A DNA stretch of 64,000 nucleotides, taken from positions 1 to 64,000 of the forward strand of contig JAEUHE010000086.1 in NCBI GenBank assembly GCA_016793885.1, read 5' to 3'. The notes below the pieces were generated by a model that was given only the letters and a program-made list of their open reading frames with translations, searched no databases and had not been told where the DNA came from. The stretch comes from Verrucomicrobiales bacterium (GTDB lineage Bacteria > Verrucomicrobiota > Verrucomicrobiia > Limisphaerales > UBA11320). Made by a program: the position numbers and the translations under genes. Below, piece after piece: positions 2,289 to 8,655 of the stretch (its first letter is position 1; the number at the start of each line of letters is the position of its first letter).

Positions 2289-5200
2289 ATGAACTTCTCG
2301 CACTTTTTCATCAAGCGCCCCATTTTCGCCGGGGTCCTCTCCATCCTGATCCTGGTCGTGGGCGCCATCGCCTTGTGGAAGCTGCCCATTAGCGAGTATC
2401 CGGAAGTCGTTCCTCCTTCCGTCGTCGTCCGCGCAGCTTACCCGGGTGCCAACCCCAAAACCATCGCGGAGACGGTTGCTGCGCCGCTGGAGCAGGCCAT
2501 CAACGGCGTCGAGAACTCGCTCTACCTGTATTCTCAGGCAGCGAGCGACGGCGTCATGACGCTCACTGTCACCTTCAAGCTCGGCACTGACGTCGACAAG
2601 GCGCAGGTTCAAGTGCAAAACCGCGTCTCGCAGGCCCTCCCGAAACTTCCCGAGGAGGTTCGCCGCATCGGCGTCACCACCACCAAGCAGTCCCCCGACC
2701 TCACCATGGTGGCACATCTCTATTCGCCCGGAGGTCGCTACGACGAAGTTTACCTGCGCAACTACGCCACGCTCCAGGTCAAGGATGTGCTGGCTCGCAT
2801 CCCAGGGGTGGGCACCGTCGAGATTTTCGGCGCGGGTGAATATGCCATGCGCGTGTGGCTGGATCCCAACCAAGTCGCCGCCCGAGGTCTGACGGCAGGG
2901 GACGTGGTCCAGGCGATCCGCGAACAGAACGTGCAAGTGGCCGCGGGAGCGGTCGGACAACAGCCGATCGGACGGTCCGTGGACAGCGAGCTGCAAATCA
3001 ACACCAAAGGACGGCTGGTCACCGAGGAGGAGTTCGGCGAGATTATCGTCAAGACCGGCGCGAACGGGGAGAAAACGCTGCTTAAGGATTTGGCGAGGGT
3101 TGAGCTGGGTTCTTCAGGCTACTCCCTCCGCTCGCTCCTCGATAACCAGACCGCCGTGGCCTTGCCCATCTTTCAGGCGCCGGGTGCCAATGCCATCCAG
3201 CTTTCGGACGATGTGCGAAAAACCCTCGCCGAGCTCCGCAAGAATTTCCCCGATGGCATCGACTTCGCCGTGGTTTATGATCCCACGGTTTTCGTCCGGA
3301 AGTCCATCCGCGCCGTCATCACCACGCTCGTCGAGGCCATCCTCTTGGTGGTCATCGTGGTGATCCTGTTTCTTCAAACCTGGCGGGCGTCGATCATCCC
3401 CCTCGCGGCGGTGCCCGTGTCGCTCGTGGGGACATTTGCGGCCATGCACGCGCTCGGGTTCAGCATCAACGCCCTTTCGCTGTTCGGACTGGTGCTCGCC
3501 ATCGGCATCGTGGTCGACGATGCCATTGTGGTGGTGGAAAACGTGGAGCGAAACATCGCGCTCGGTTTGAGTCCGGTGGATGCCACCAAAAAAGCGATGA
3601 ATGAAGTAACCGGACCGATCATAGCCACCGCGCTGGTACTCTGCGCTGTCTTTATTCCCACCGCCTTTATCAGCGGCCTGACCGGACAGTTTTACAAGCA
3701 GTTCGCCATTACGATCGCCATCTCCACCCTGATCTCCGCGTTCAATTCGCTCACGCTCTCGCCAGCCCTCAGCGCCATCTTGCTGCGCCGTCATGACGCT
3801 CCGCCCGACCGGCCGACGCGGATTCTGAACTTCCTGCTCGGATGGATCTTCCGCCCTTTCAACCGGCTCTTTCACCGCGCTGGCCTGCTGTATGCCACGG
3901 GGGTCACCCAGACCATCCGAAAAACCGCGCTGGCCCTGCTCCTTTATGCCGGGCTCGTGGTGCTGACCGGCTGGGCTTTCAACAAGGTGCCCACGGGCTT
4001 CGTGCCCATCCAGGACAAACAGTACATCGTGGCCTTCGCACAGTTGCCCGATGCCTCGTCGCTGGACCGCACCGAAGAGGTGATCCGACGCATGTCCGAT
4101 CTCGCCCTGAAGCAGCCGGGAGTCGAGCACGCGGTCGCGTTTCCCGGGTTGAGCATCAACGGATTCGCGGTCACCCCCAACGCCGGCGCCGTCTTCATCA
4201 CCCTCAAGCCATTCGAAGAGCGCCGCACGCCCAACCTCAGTGGTATCGCGATCGCCGGCGCTCTCAACGAACAGTTCGGAGCGATCAAGGAAGCCTTCGT
4301 CATGTGTGTGCCGCCGCCGCCCGTCAATGGCCTGGGCATGCTCGGCGGATTCAAGATGTTTGTCCAAGACCGGGCGGACGTCGGTTTTGATGCGCTGTTC
4401 CAAAACACCCAGGCGCTCATTGGCAAGGGATATCAGACCCCGGGCCTCGCCGGACTCTTCTCCACCTTTACGGTCAATGTGCCGCAGGTGGATGCCGAGG
4501 TGGACCGGGTCAAAGCCAAGGCCCAGGGGGTCCCCCTGCAGAATTTGTTCGAAACCATGCAGGTGAACCTCGGTTCGCTTTATGTGAACGACTTCAACCG
4601 GTTTGGTCGAACGTTCCAAGTGATCGTGCAGGCGGATGCCCAATTCCGCGAACGCGCTGAAGACATCACCCGCCTCAAAACGCGGAATGCCAAAGGTCAG
4701 ATGGTCCCGCTGGCAGCCCTGGTCACCGTGAGCGAAGCCTACGGGCCGGATCGGGTGATGCGCTACAACGGATTCCCCGCCGCCGAGATCAATGGCGGCC
4801 CCGCACCCGGCTTCAGCTCCGGCCAAGCCGAGGCCCTCATGGCCGGGCTGGCCGAAGCCAACCTGCCCAAAGGCCTCTCCTATGAATGGACCGAGCTGAC
4901 CTACCAACGCATCCTGGCGGGGAACACCGCGGGCTACATCTACCCCTTGTGCCTCCTGCTGGTGTTTCTGGTGCTCGCCGCGCAATACGAGAGTCTGCGG
5001 TTGCCCATCGCCATTATTCTCATTGTTCCCCTCTGCCTGCTCTTCGCCTTGGCGGGTGTCTGGCTATCCAACGGCGACAATAATGTGTTTACTCAAATCG
5101 GGCTGATCGTTTTGGTGGGCCTCGCCTGCAAGAACGCCATCCTCATCGTCGAGTTCGCCAAGCATAAACAGGATGAAGGCATGGCTCCGGTGCCGGCCGC

Positions 5201-6908
5201 GATCGAGGCGGCTCAACTCCGCCTGCGCCCGATTCTCATGACGAGTATCGCGTTTATCGCCGGCGTCTATCCCCTGGTGACCAGCACCGGCGCCGGTGCC
5301 GAGATGCGTCAAGCCATGGGTGTCGCCGTGTTCGCCGGGATGATCGGAGTAACCCTGTTTGGCCTCTTTCTGACTCCGGTGTTCTACACCTTCTTGATGC
5401 GACTAGGTCGAAAGGCCCACTCACAACCCGCGCCCGATCCAGCCGGTCCCTCCATCGGAAAAACCGGCCTGGCGGCAGGGGGAACCGCCGCGCTGCTGAC
5501 GGGCTTTCTCGTCCTCGGCTGTGGCCTGGTCGACGCGGGGGCGGGTGTACTGACCGTGGGTCCCAATTATACGCGGCCAACCAACAATGTACCGGCCGGG
5601 TTCAGCGACGAGCCTCTGGGGGATTGGAAGGAAGGGCGCCCGGCCGACATGATACCGAGGGGCAATTGGTGGACACTGTTCCAGGACGATGAGCTGAATC
5701 GTCTCCAGGAACGTGCCCTCGCCGGCAACCAGGATCTGAAAGCAGCCATCGCGCGCGTCGAACAAGCTCGCGCCTCCAGCCGGCAATCGAAGTCGGCCTT
5801 CTTTCCCGATCTGTCGTTCGATCCCAGCTACGCTCGCACCCGCTATTCCCCCAACGCCGGCCTCGCCTTCCCGTTGGATCAGGCAGGCAACATTCGGGTG
5901 CCTTTGGACCTCAATTACGAGCTCGACCTGTGGGGACGAGTGCGTCGGGTTTTCGAAGCCTCAAAGCGGAATACCGAGGCCCGAATGGCGGCTTTCGAGA
6001 CGATACGCCTCTCCCTGCACGCCGAAGTAGCAACCCTCTACTTTACGTTGCGCAGCACCGATGCCGAGCTTTCCACGGTTCAGCAAACGGTGACCCTCAG
6101 AAAAGAGGCGCTCGACATCGTCAAGTCCCGGTTCGCCGCCGGGGGGAGCACGGAACTGGAAGTGGCTAGGGCGGAAACGGAACTGGCCTCGGCCGAGAGC
6201 GATCTGGCCGTGATAACCCGGCGTCGTCACGAGCTTCGCACCTCCCTGGCCGTGCTCCTGGGCGAGCCCGCGAGCACTCTGCAAATCCCCACCCAGGGCT
6301 CCTTCCAGATCCACGTGCCAACCGTGCCGGCGGGATTGCCCTCCGATCTGCTGGAACGTCGGCCCGATATCGCCGAGGCAGAGCGGGATCTCGCCGCCCG
6401 CAACGCGCGAATCGGAGTGGCAAAAGCGGCCTTCTTTCCGACAGTGAAAGTCACGGGCTTCGGCGGATTCGAAAGCGCCGACGTCGATACGCTCTTCAAC
6501 TGGCAAAGCCGCATTTGGTCGATTGGCCCCAGCATCACCCTGCCCATCTTCCAAACCGGCCGAAACCGTGCGGCGCTGCGACAGTCCCAAGCCGCCTGGT
6601 CCGAAGGTGTCGCCCTATATCGGCAGCGTGTTTTGATCGCGTTCAAGGAGGTGCAAGACGCCCTGACCGCCTCCCGCCTGCTCAAGGAGCAGGCGGACGC
6701 TCAGCACCGGGCGCTCGAGGGCGCGCGACGCGTCGCCGAGCTGTCCCGGAAGCGATACGATGCCGGATTTGTCGGCTACCTAGACGTGGTGGAAAGCGAG
6801 CGCACCCTGCTTGGATTCGAGCGCGCGACGCTCCAAACCGCGGGCCAGCGCCTCGTGGTATCGGTGCAGCTGATTAAGGCCCTGGGCGGTGGGTGGACGA
6901 ATCAGTGA
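2289..6908 (+). CDS. RND efflux permease fused to outer-membrane factor
   Basis: A 1539-residue protein joining two normally separate components. Residues 1 to about 1040 are a complete HAE1-type RND permease (AcrB/MexB-like): an MNFSHFFIKRPIFAGVLSI start, two large periplasmic loops and the proton-relay residues Asp410-Asp411 (GIVVDDAIVV) and Lys948 (GLACKNAILIVEF). Residues about 1095-1539 are a full OprM/NodT-type outer-membrane factor with VGPNYTRP, NWWTLFQDDEL, DLNYELDLWGRVRR and LLERRPDIAEAE. The junction, after the last permease helix, holds a short cytoplasmic linker, a hydrophobic segment and a lipobox-like LVLGC with Cys1078. Cleavage there, or internal initiation at Met1037 (ATG at 5397), could release a normal lipoprotein. 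The frame is open throughout with no sign of a frameshift. The substrate is unknown. Confidence 0.93.
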   Translation: MNFSHFFIKRPIFAGVLSILILVVGAIALWKLPISEYPEVVPPSVVVRAAYPGANPKTIAETVAAPLEQAINGVENSLYLYSQAASDGVMTLTVTFKLGTDVDKAQVQVQNRVSQALPKLPEEVRRIGVTTTKQSPDLTMVAHLYSPGGRYDEVYLRNYATLQVKDVLARIPGVGTVEIFGAGEYAMRVWLDPNQVAARGLTAGDVVQAIREQNVQVAAGAVGQQPIGRSVDSELQINTKGRLVTEEEFGEIIVKTGANGEKTLLKDLARVELGSSGYSLRSLLDNQTAVALPIFQAPGANAIQLSDDVRKTLAELRKNFPDGIDFAVVYDPTVFVRKSIRAVITTLVEAILLVVIVVILFLQTWRASIIPLAAVPVSLVGTFAAMHALGFSINALSLFGLVLAIGIVVDDAIVVVENVERNIALGLSPVDATKKAMNEVTGPIIATALVLCAVFIPTAFISGLTGQFYKQFAITIAISTLISAFNSLTLSPALSAILLRRHDAPPDRPTRILNFLLGWIFRPFNRLFHRAGLLYATGVTQTIRKTALALLLYAGLVVLTGWAFNKVPTGFVPIQDKQYIVAFAQLPDASSLDRTEEVIRRMSDLALKQPGVEHAVAFPGLSINGFAVTPNAGAVFITLKPFEERRTPNLSGIAIAGALNEQFGAIKEAFVMCVPPPPVNGLGMLGGFKMFVQDRADVGFDALFQNTQALIGKGYQTPGLAGLFSTFTVNVPQVDAEVDRVKAKAQGVPLQNLFETMQVNLGSLYVNDFNRFGRTFQVIVQADAQFRERAEDITRLKTRNAKGQMVPLAALVTVSEAYGPDRVMRYNGFPAAEINGGPAPGFSSGQAEALMAGLAEANLPKGLSYEWTELTYQRILAGNTAGYIYPLCLLLVFLVLAAQYESLRLPIAIILIVPLCLLFALAGVWLSNGDNNVFTQIGLIVLVGLACKNAILIVEFAKHKQDEGMAPVPAAIEAAQLRLRPILMTSIAFIAGVYPLVTSTGAGAEMRQAMGVAVFAGMIGVTLFGLFLTPVFYTFLMRLGRKAHSQPAPDPAGPSIGKTGLAAGGTAALLTGFLVLGCGLVDAGAGVLTVGPNYTRPTNNVPAGFSDEPLGDWKEGRPADMIPRGNWWTLFQDDELNRLQERALAGNQDLKAAIARVEQARASSRQSKSAFFPDLSFDPSYARTRYSPNAGLAFPLDQAGNIRVPLDLNYELDLWGRVRRVFEASKRNTEARMAAFETIRLSLHAEVATLYFTLRSTDAELSTVQQTVTLRKEALDIVKSRFAAGGSTELEVARAETELASAESDLAVITRRRHELRTSLAVLLGEPASTLQIPTQGSFQIHVPTVPAGLPSDLLERRPDIAEAERDLAARNARIGVAKAAFFPTVKVTGFGGFESADVDTLFNWQSRIWSIGPSITLPIFQTGRNRAALRQSQAAWSEGVALYRQRVLIAFKEVQDALTASRLLKEQADAQHRALEGARRVAELSRKRYDAGFVGYLDVVESERTLLGFERATLQTAGQRLVVSVQLIKALGGGWTNQ

Positions 6909-7158: not shown

Positions 7159-8655
7159 ATGAGCATCCAGTCAATCGTTACGGCGATCGTAGTCCTCGGG
7201 TTGGCCCTGATGGCGGGTCCAGTGGAGGCCGAACATCGGGCCACCTTCCTCGGCCACCCGGCGCATCGCTTCGCGCCACCGCTCAAGCGCTCGGAAGATC
7301 TGCGGCAACTGCTCCTGAACGACGCGCTGCGCGCCGACATTGAGTCGATCCTGAACCAGGCTGGCTGGAAGGGCGACATCGAGGATCTGATTCGCGCTGC
7401 CGCCAGCGCCGATATCGTCGAGTGGCGGATTCCAGTGGGTGGTCGGATGCCGTTCATGTCGTCCCGAAAGAAGGGCAAGCCGATCGCGCTGATCGATGTG
7501 CTCTGGGTAGGCAAGGAACCGATCGAGGCGTTCGCCTTCCCTTTCTCCTCCAAAGGCCAAAAATACCGGCTGGTCACACCCAAGCCCTGCAGCAACTTCT
7601 TCGTGGAAGATCTTGGACCTGAGACCCCGCCCGTGCCGCCGGCAAAACTAGAGCTGGCCCTCAACGTCGCCGCCAGCGGCAACGTGTGCGAGCCGATCGA
7701 GTTGGAGGCCACCGTGCGGAATACCGGCGGCTCCCCTTTGACCCAGGTCCGGCTGACGGAAACGCTACCCGACGGCCTGAGGCTGATTGACGACAAAGCC
7801 ACCCTCACCATCGACGTCGGAGATCTGCCTCCGCGGTCTGGGCGCATCTACCGGGCCTATCTCAAAGCCAGCGCTCGCGGGACTTACCCGCATTTGGCCA
7901 AAGTGACTTCGGCCGAAGGATTGGCCGCCGAGGCGACCGCCCGGACCCTGGTGCTCGCGCCTGATCTCACGCTGACCTGCACCGCCCCCGAAGAGATTCA
8001 TCCGGGACGCCCCGCCAAGGTTTGCCTCACCCTCACCAACCGGGGCGACGCAGCCGAGCCCGGCGCGGTGGTTTCGCTGCTGGTTCCCAACGGAGCAAGC
8101 TTCCAGAGCGCTACCGAAGGTGGCGAGTTGGTCGGAGATCTCGTTGTGTGGAGAAACCTCGCCCTGGCTCCCACCGCCGCCACTTCGTTCTGCGCCACCT
8201 TTACGGTCGCCCAACTCGGCGCCGTCAATTTTTCCGCCGCCGCAGTAGGGACTTGCGCCCCGCAGGTGGCCACCCAATGCGATGCCAAAGTCTCAGGACT
8301 CGCCGCCATTCTTCTCGAAGTCGCGGACATCGAAGATCCTATTTCCGTCGGGAGCCAGGAAATCTACGAAATCAAGGTGACGAACCAAGGCTCGGCGCCG
8401 GGAACCGAGGTTTCGATTGTCTGCGAGTTGGAGGACACACAATCCTTTATCTCCGCCACGGGCACAACGCCGGTCCGGGCCGAAGGAGCAACGCTCACGA
8501 TGCAGACACTTCCCCGGCTCGAGCCGAAAGCGGCCGCATCGTGGCGGGTGACAGTCAACGCCGCCAAGGCGGGCGATGTGAGGTTTCATGTTCGACTCAC
8601 CAGCGATCAGCTGACGCAGCCGGTGCGAGAGACCGAAGCCACCCGGCAGTTCTAA
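7159..8655 (+). CDS. Secreted DUF11/CARDB-like repeat protein
   Basis: A 498-residue exported protein. An N-terminal signal peptide (IVTAIVVLGLALMAGPVEAE) is followed by a domain of about 130 residues that I do not recognise (27-155), then about three immunoglobulin-like repeats of 100-110 residues of the DUF11 type, with recurring phrases such as NTGGSPLTQVRLTETLPDGL and NQGSAPGTEVSIV. Such repeats occur in surface and secreted proteins of Verrucomicrobiota and Planctomycetota and probably act as structural or adhesive modules. There is no catalytic motif and no C-terminal anchor. It ends 52 bp before the aldolase gene on the same strand, but a functional link is not evident. Confidence 0.8.
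   Translation: MSIQSIVTAIVVLGLALMAGPVEAEHRATFLGHPAHRFAPPLKRSEDLRQLLLNDALRADIESILNQAGWKGDIEDLIRAAASADIVEWRIPVGGRMPFMSSRKKGKPIALIDVLWVGKEPIEAFAFPFSSKGQKYRLVTPKPCSNFFVEDLGPETPPVPPAKLELALNVAASGNVCEPIELEATVRNTGGSPLTQVRLTETLPDGLRLIDDKATLTIDVGDLPPRSGRIYRAYLKASARGTYPHLAKVTSAEGLAAEATARTLVLAPDLTLTCTAPEEIHPGRPAKVCLTLTNRGDAAEPGAVVSLLVPNGASFQSATEGGELVGDLVVWRNLALAPTAATSFCATFTVAQLGAVNFSAAAVGTCAPQVATQCDAKVSGLAAILLEVADIEDPISVGSQEIYEIKVTNQGSAPGTEVSIVCELEDTQSFISATGTTPVRAEGATLTMQTLPRLEPKAAASWRVTVNAAKAGDVRFHVRLTSDQLTQPVRETEATRQF

Follow-up and report, generated by a model that had tools for sequence, protein, structure and literature searches.

An RND permease and outer membrane factor fused in one Verrucomicrobiales gene, probably an efflux polyprotein processed at an internal signal peptide

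HAE1 efflux pumps of the MexEF-OprN/OqxAB type combine a periplasmic adaptor (MexE, OqxA), an RND permease, and an outer membrane factor (OMF), with the permease and the OMF encoded by separate genes; the gene order of MexEF-OprN is adaptor, permease, OMF. Fusions of about 1440 to 1500 amino acids in Bacteroidota join a CusA/CzcA-type permease to an OMF within one open reading frame (ORF), the RND part first, followed by a basic tail and an internal signal peptide. Among bacteria, the classic example of such a design is FbcH of Bradyrhizobium, a cytochrome b-cytochrome c1 polyprotein that is split at the signal peptide which c1 contributes to the chain. In LtaS of Staphylococcus aureus, the signal peptidase SpsB cuts between Ala217 and Ser218, after the polytopic domain (PMC10865820). 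A search of literature outside subscription journals returned no paper on RND-OMF fusions or on polyproteins of bacteria that are processed at a signal peptide within the chain.

The locus described here lies in a window of 64,000 nucleotides, which is the whole stretch of Verrucomicrobiales DNA analyzed. Its adaptor, permease, and OMF fold are like those of MexEF-OprN/OqxAB-type pumps, and the order of these parts is that of MexEF-OprN, but the permease and the OMF form a single gene (2289 to 6908; forward strand, as for all features below). The first gene of the operon encodes a TetR-family regulator (385 to 1014; Pfam TetR_N and TetR_C_13) and is followed by a MexE/OqxA-like periplasmic adaptor, for which MexE and OqxA give the best scores (1035 to 2279; NCBIfam RND-peri-MexE, 376 bits; RND_mfp, 263 bits) that carries its own N-terminal lipobox, LLSGC. 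The position of both genes upstream on the same strand indicates that the fused gene is the last of a MexEF-OprN/OqxAB-like operon. Wherever a checked operon had sufficient flanking sequence, an adaptor gene again stands ahead of the fused gene, and in many of the fused operons the adaptor is itself preceded by a TetR regulator 39 to 50% identical to that of the window. A promoter scan of the operon gave nothing above chance (1 found versus 1.2 expected). The downstream gene (7159 to 8655) encodes DUF11/CARDB repeat domains and, as far as seen, has no part in the function of the operon.

The fused gene is a single uninterrupted ORF of 1539 amino acids with no internal stop. Residues 1 to 1036 (2289 to 5396) constitute an HAE1 RND permease. 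Pfam ACR_tran matches residues 3 to 1036 over positions 1 to 1020 of its 1021-position profile (1166 bits, above the curated cut-off), and NCBIfam RND_permease_1 matches residues 4 to 1037 with 1436 bits versus a cut-off of 1250, the OqxB model being also among the best. The HME model for CusA/CzcA-type permeases, TIGR00914, gives 351 bits, below its cut-off of 701. This half can be aligned over its full length with RND pumps of solved structure and contains the proton-relay motifs GIVVDDAIVV at 406, LACKNAI at 945, and LRPILMT at 979; by the pattern of the family, the Asp-Asp pair would lie in TM4, the lysine in TM10, and the arginine in TM11. The C-terminal part contains two Pfam OEP matches and reaches 406 bits with the NodT OMF model TIGR01845 (cut-off, 210) over residues 1090 to 1535, and its alignment with mature OprM and CusC begins at about residue 3 of those proteins. 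The predicted structure of residues 1033 to 1539 (mean pLDDT, 83) consists of a low-confidence linker, a helix at residues 1065 to 1077, and a TolC-type OMF nearest to OprN, OprJ, OprM, and CusC, with TM-scores of 0.72 to 0.75 to OprN and OprM by query length. The nearest named relatives of this OMF come from Verrucomicrobia metagenome-assembled genomes. The stop-free ORF, the profile scores, and the end-to-end alignments thus bear out the initial annotation, which had described a complete HAE1 pump and a complete OMF in one polypeptide: an RND permease (residues 1 to about 1037) is followed by an OMF of the NodT/OprM type (about 1090 to 1535).

The same fusion was found on searching related genomes. 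Among 320 genomes from the order to which the window belongs, at least 49 full-length fusions, the window included, occur across about 18 family codes, a count that excludes further fragments cut by contig ends. Two groups can be distinguished within the order, as follows: group A has 37 fusions with at least 65% overall identity (permease, 72 to 80%), and group B has 12 with 45 to 51% (permease, 52 to 59%), one of them in a single-contig genome. A third set, group C, is found in other classes of the phylum, with permeases of about 38 to 43% identity. A search by exact 8-residue patterns of the OMF half retrieved, owing to that restriction, only unfused homologues; the fusions came from a separate genome search. 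The window belongs to a draft genome of 274 contigs, which leaves room for a sequencing or assembly artefact, or for a dead gene that has lost its stop codon. Such explanations have a negligible probability, since the in-frame fusion recurs in dozens of independent genomes of the order, elsewhere in the phylum, and in Bacteroidota, and since both halves remain conserved among relatives over 45 to 71% identity. The recurrence likewise excludes a frameshift near position 5400 that would separate two genes.

One plan holds for the junction between the two parts in each of the 65 HAE1 fusions inspected. Beyond the final helix of the permease come a net-positive tail, a linker, and a hydrophobic segment, after which a signal peptidase site directly precedes the OMF start, which resembles [VI]GP[DN]Y. 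Thirty-five of these sites are of the signal peptidase I type, with alanine at position −1 in 34 and glycine in 1, alanine at −3 in 26 (otherwise T, L, V, or S), a highly variable −2 position (entropy, 3.06 bits), and four residues from the cut to VGP in 34 of the 35. The remaining 30 sites are lipoboxes, all with glycine at −1 and cysteine at +1, with S, T, G, N, or F at −2 and two or three residues from the cysteine to VGP. Three group A relatives (L151, L159, and L163) have TGC near the position where the others have AxA, so that the type of site switches while a cut site is retained. Counting against cleavage, the site is weak (SLQG↓A; the arrow marks the cut) in L118, an unreliable draft of the same genus.

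The permeases of unfused relatives lack this anatomy. Their tails are short and without a hydrophobic segment in 26 of 27 cases, the 15-residue mean hydropathy staying at or below 0.76, compared with 1.66 to 2.78 (median, 2.29) for the segment in the fusions. It is the separate OMFs of such relatives that begin with signal peptides of matching design. That of L201 carries MRILRMLTLLSLFCSTAFA↓GILTVGPDY (ending in LFCSTAFA↓GILTVGPDY), and that of L140 starts with MKIF and runs through LLAGC to AVGPDY, with the cut placed after LLAGC. The most natural interpretation is therefore that the internal segment is the original signal peptide of the OMF, retained after loss of the stop codon. In four split relatives (L140, L187, L190, and L191), the permease ends in a stop codon and the OMF follows in the same frame, which may represent an intermediate arrangement. 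As in FbcH, a hydrophobic segment and a peptidase site lie between the two domains and are homologous to the signal peptide of the partner itself. The segment and the peptidase site are kept in 65 of 65 fusions, and the segment is lacking in 26 of 27 unfused permease tails; on this ground the gene very probably encodes an efflux polyprotein that a signal peptidase cuts at a signal peptide inside the chain.

The cytoplasmic permease tail of the window protein (residues 1034 to 1058; 5388 to 5462), disordered or of low confidence in the model, is basic and then rich in proline and alanine. It is followed by the hydrophobic segment (residues 1059 to 1081; 5463 to 5531), the candidate h-region of the internal signal peptide and a predicted 13th membrane helix. 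With a 15-residue hydropathy of 2.29 and the modeled helix at 1065 to 1077, this segment agrees with the earlier description of a correctly oriented hydrophobic stretch after the last permease helix. Directly after it comes a predicted signal peptidase I site, AGA (residues 1083 to 1085; 5535 to 5543), which aligns with the AxA↓G of group A fusions and would be cut before Gly1086. The cut AGA↓GVLT after Ala1085 leaves four residues to VGP, as in 34 of the 35 sites of this type; Asp1082, at −4, counts against it. The predicted mature OMF would comprise residues 1086 to 1539 (5544 to 6905; about 50 kDa), an assignment based on TIGR01845, the mature N termini of OprM and CusC, the TolC-type fold, and mass. 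Shuffled versions of the window junction satisfy the cleavage motif rule in 47% of cases and also keep a hydrophobic segment in 18%, since the rule alone is permissive on alanine-rich sequence; the evidence draws its strength from the column pattern across the many sequences, a number of which are closely related to one another.

That a signal peptidase frees the OMF, as the initial annotation had suggested, is the best explanation, although the site that it had proposed, Cys1078 of LVLGC (5520 to 5522), is not conserved. Under that proposal the same polyprotein is cut by signal peptidase II at LVLG↓Cys1078 to give an OMF lipoprotein. The hydrophobic segment and the cysteine are correctly oriented, LspA is encoded in the genome, the lipobox is real in 30 of the 65 fusions, and OprM and CusC are themselves lipoproteins (PMC3017539; PMC4790312). 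Against this reading, Cys1078 is off the aligned cut position and missing in close relatives; leucine at −2 is never found in the 30 lipobox-type fusions, and VGPNY is 12 residues away instead of two or three. No cysteine occurs within 11 residues before VGPNY in the window, where the AxA site is found instead, as in 34 other fusions. Lipidation of an N-terminal cysteine beside the VGPDY motif is usual for NodT/OprM-type OMFs, although not universal, and does not define the fold. Since AGA↓GVLT fits the group A pattern and the upstream LVLGC is unique to the window, the favored enzyme is signal peptidase I, and cleavage at Cys1078 appears unlikely; lipoprotein release is nonetheless likely in the lipobox-type members. 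Both peptidases are encoded in the genome of the window, and the presence of two candidate sites in its junction makes the acting peptidase less certain than cleavage by one of them.

Two further readings do without cleavage. The first, an internal translation start that yields the OMF separately from the same mRNA, draws on the in-frame ATG of Met1037 (5397 to 5399) and on the OMFs of split relatives, which begin with their own ATG. Met1037, which had been put forward as such a start, turns out to be a residue of the permease tail that is also present in unfused permeases and missing in the second group of fusions, and no Shine-Dalgarno sequence precedes it or any other in-frame start in the window junction. 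The linkers of L154, L155, L188, and L189 have no suitable start codon, and an internal start at Met1037 or another codon, which would leave the frequent continuity of the chain unexplained, is highly improbable. The second reading is an uncut chain that spans both membranes. In OprM and CusC, the mature N terminus is held at the inner leaflet of the outer membrane (PMC3017539), and the helical barrel extends more than 100 Å into the periplasm (PMC4790312). At most about 12 residues, or some 40 Å, separate the hydrophobic segment of the window from the mature OMF N terminus, so that an uncut chain could not position both parts, and the strict conservation of the peptidase sites would have no explanation. 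The uncleaved two-membrane form once considered for this protein is thus geometrically implausible, and its probability is lower still.

For the preferred reading, a processed polyprotein, the following course can be proposed. The permease would insert into the inner membrane with its C terminus in the cytoplasm, where its basic tail would provide the n-region for a further signal peptide within the chain. This signal would re-engage the Sec machinery and take the OMF to the periplasm, and the chain would then be cut, by signal peptidase I after Ala1085 in the case of the window and by signal peptidase II in members with a lipobox. Cleavage should yield a permease of about 116 kDa, which may retain the signal in the form of a 13th membrane helix, and the OMF of about 50 kDa, which would move to the outer membrane and assemble with the adaptor. 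The fusion would ensure equal synthesis of two trimeric partners. The ORF, its two complete domains, the conserved signal anatomy, and the recurrence are observed, whereas processing of the chain, what becomes of the stub, and a possible benefit are inferred. A more speculative and rather doubtful extension holds that the former signal is a built-in 13th helix, that co-translational local assembly takes place with processing in control of tripartite assembly, and that peptidases I and II are swappable at the same site.

The individual parts of this protein are ordinary, and its newness lies in their joining and in the processing predicted from sequence. As in FbcH, the reading frame of a polytopic inner membrane protein continues into an exported partner that has a signal peptide of its own; however, FbcH gives rise to a respiratory complex in one membrane, whereas the partner encoded in the window is destined for the outer membrane. 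LtaS offers a parallel for the predicted signal peptidase I cut, which there too falls beyond the final helix of a polytopic protein, but it is one processed enzyme rather than two pump subunits. The Bacteroidota fusions are found in about 27 of 61 sampled genomes (L300 to L326 and L294) and have the same internal-signal design in 27 of 27 cases, 23 by pattern and 4 by eye. They differ from the window in belonging to the HME family (TIGR00914, 1152 bits for the Arenibacter fusion) and in signal peptidase I sites that end A/S↓Q, and they presumably have an independent origin. In a tree of 137 permeases, the fused or unfused state changes at least 15 times, gains and losses not being told apart and draft-genome errors possibly inflating the count. 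The pattern fits ready gain and loss of the fusion, since the signal peptide would keep working in both arrangements.

In a tripartite pump, the partners in the two membranes must be present in matched amounts. A polyprotein split by a housekeeping signal peptidase is a simple solution, and the fusion design is shared by two RND families and found in two phyla. The efflux polyprotein is real and recurrent, it is probably processed, and it makes co-translational efflux pump assembly directly testable. An annotation may name such proteins for the permease alone, so that neither the channel nor the signal peptide inside the chain is apparent.

The genome of the window contains a second permease of the same type (L145; G000:C197:10000-24500), 57% identical to the first, with a separate OMF gene whose product has its own lipobox signal peptide, and this pair serves as an in-genome control. 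In L216 (G135:C284, permease ORF 2968-6345), the permease is 80% identical to that of the window and keeps a hydrophobic, signal-like segment with an AHA site, while the tail ends in about 40 non-OMF residues; it looks like a decayed fusion that has lost the OMF and kept the segment. No OMF gene was found adjoining the close permease relatives L139, L141, L144, L207, and L209 to L212; in L141 and L144, the permease is followed by a gene for an MFS-type transporter.
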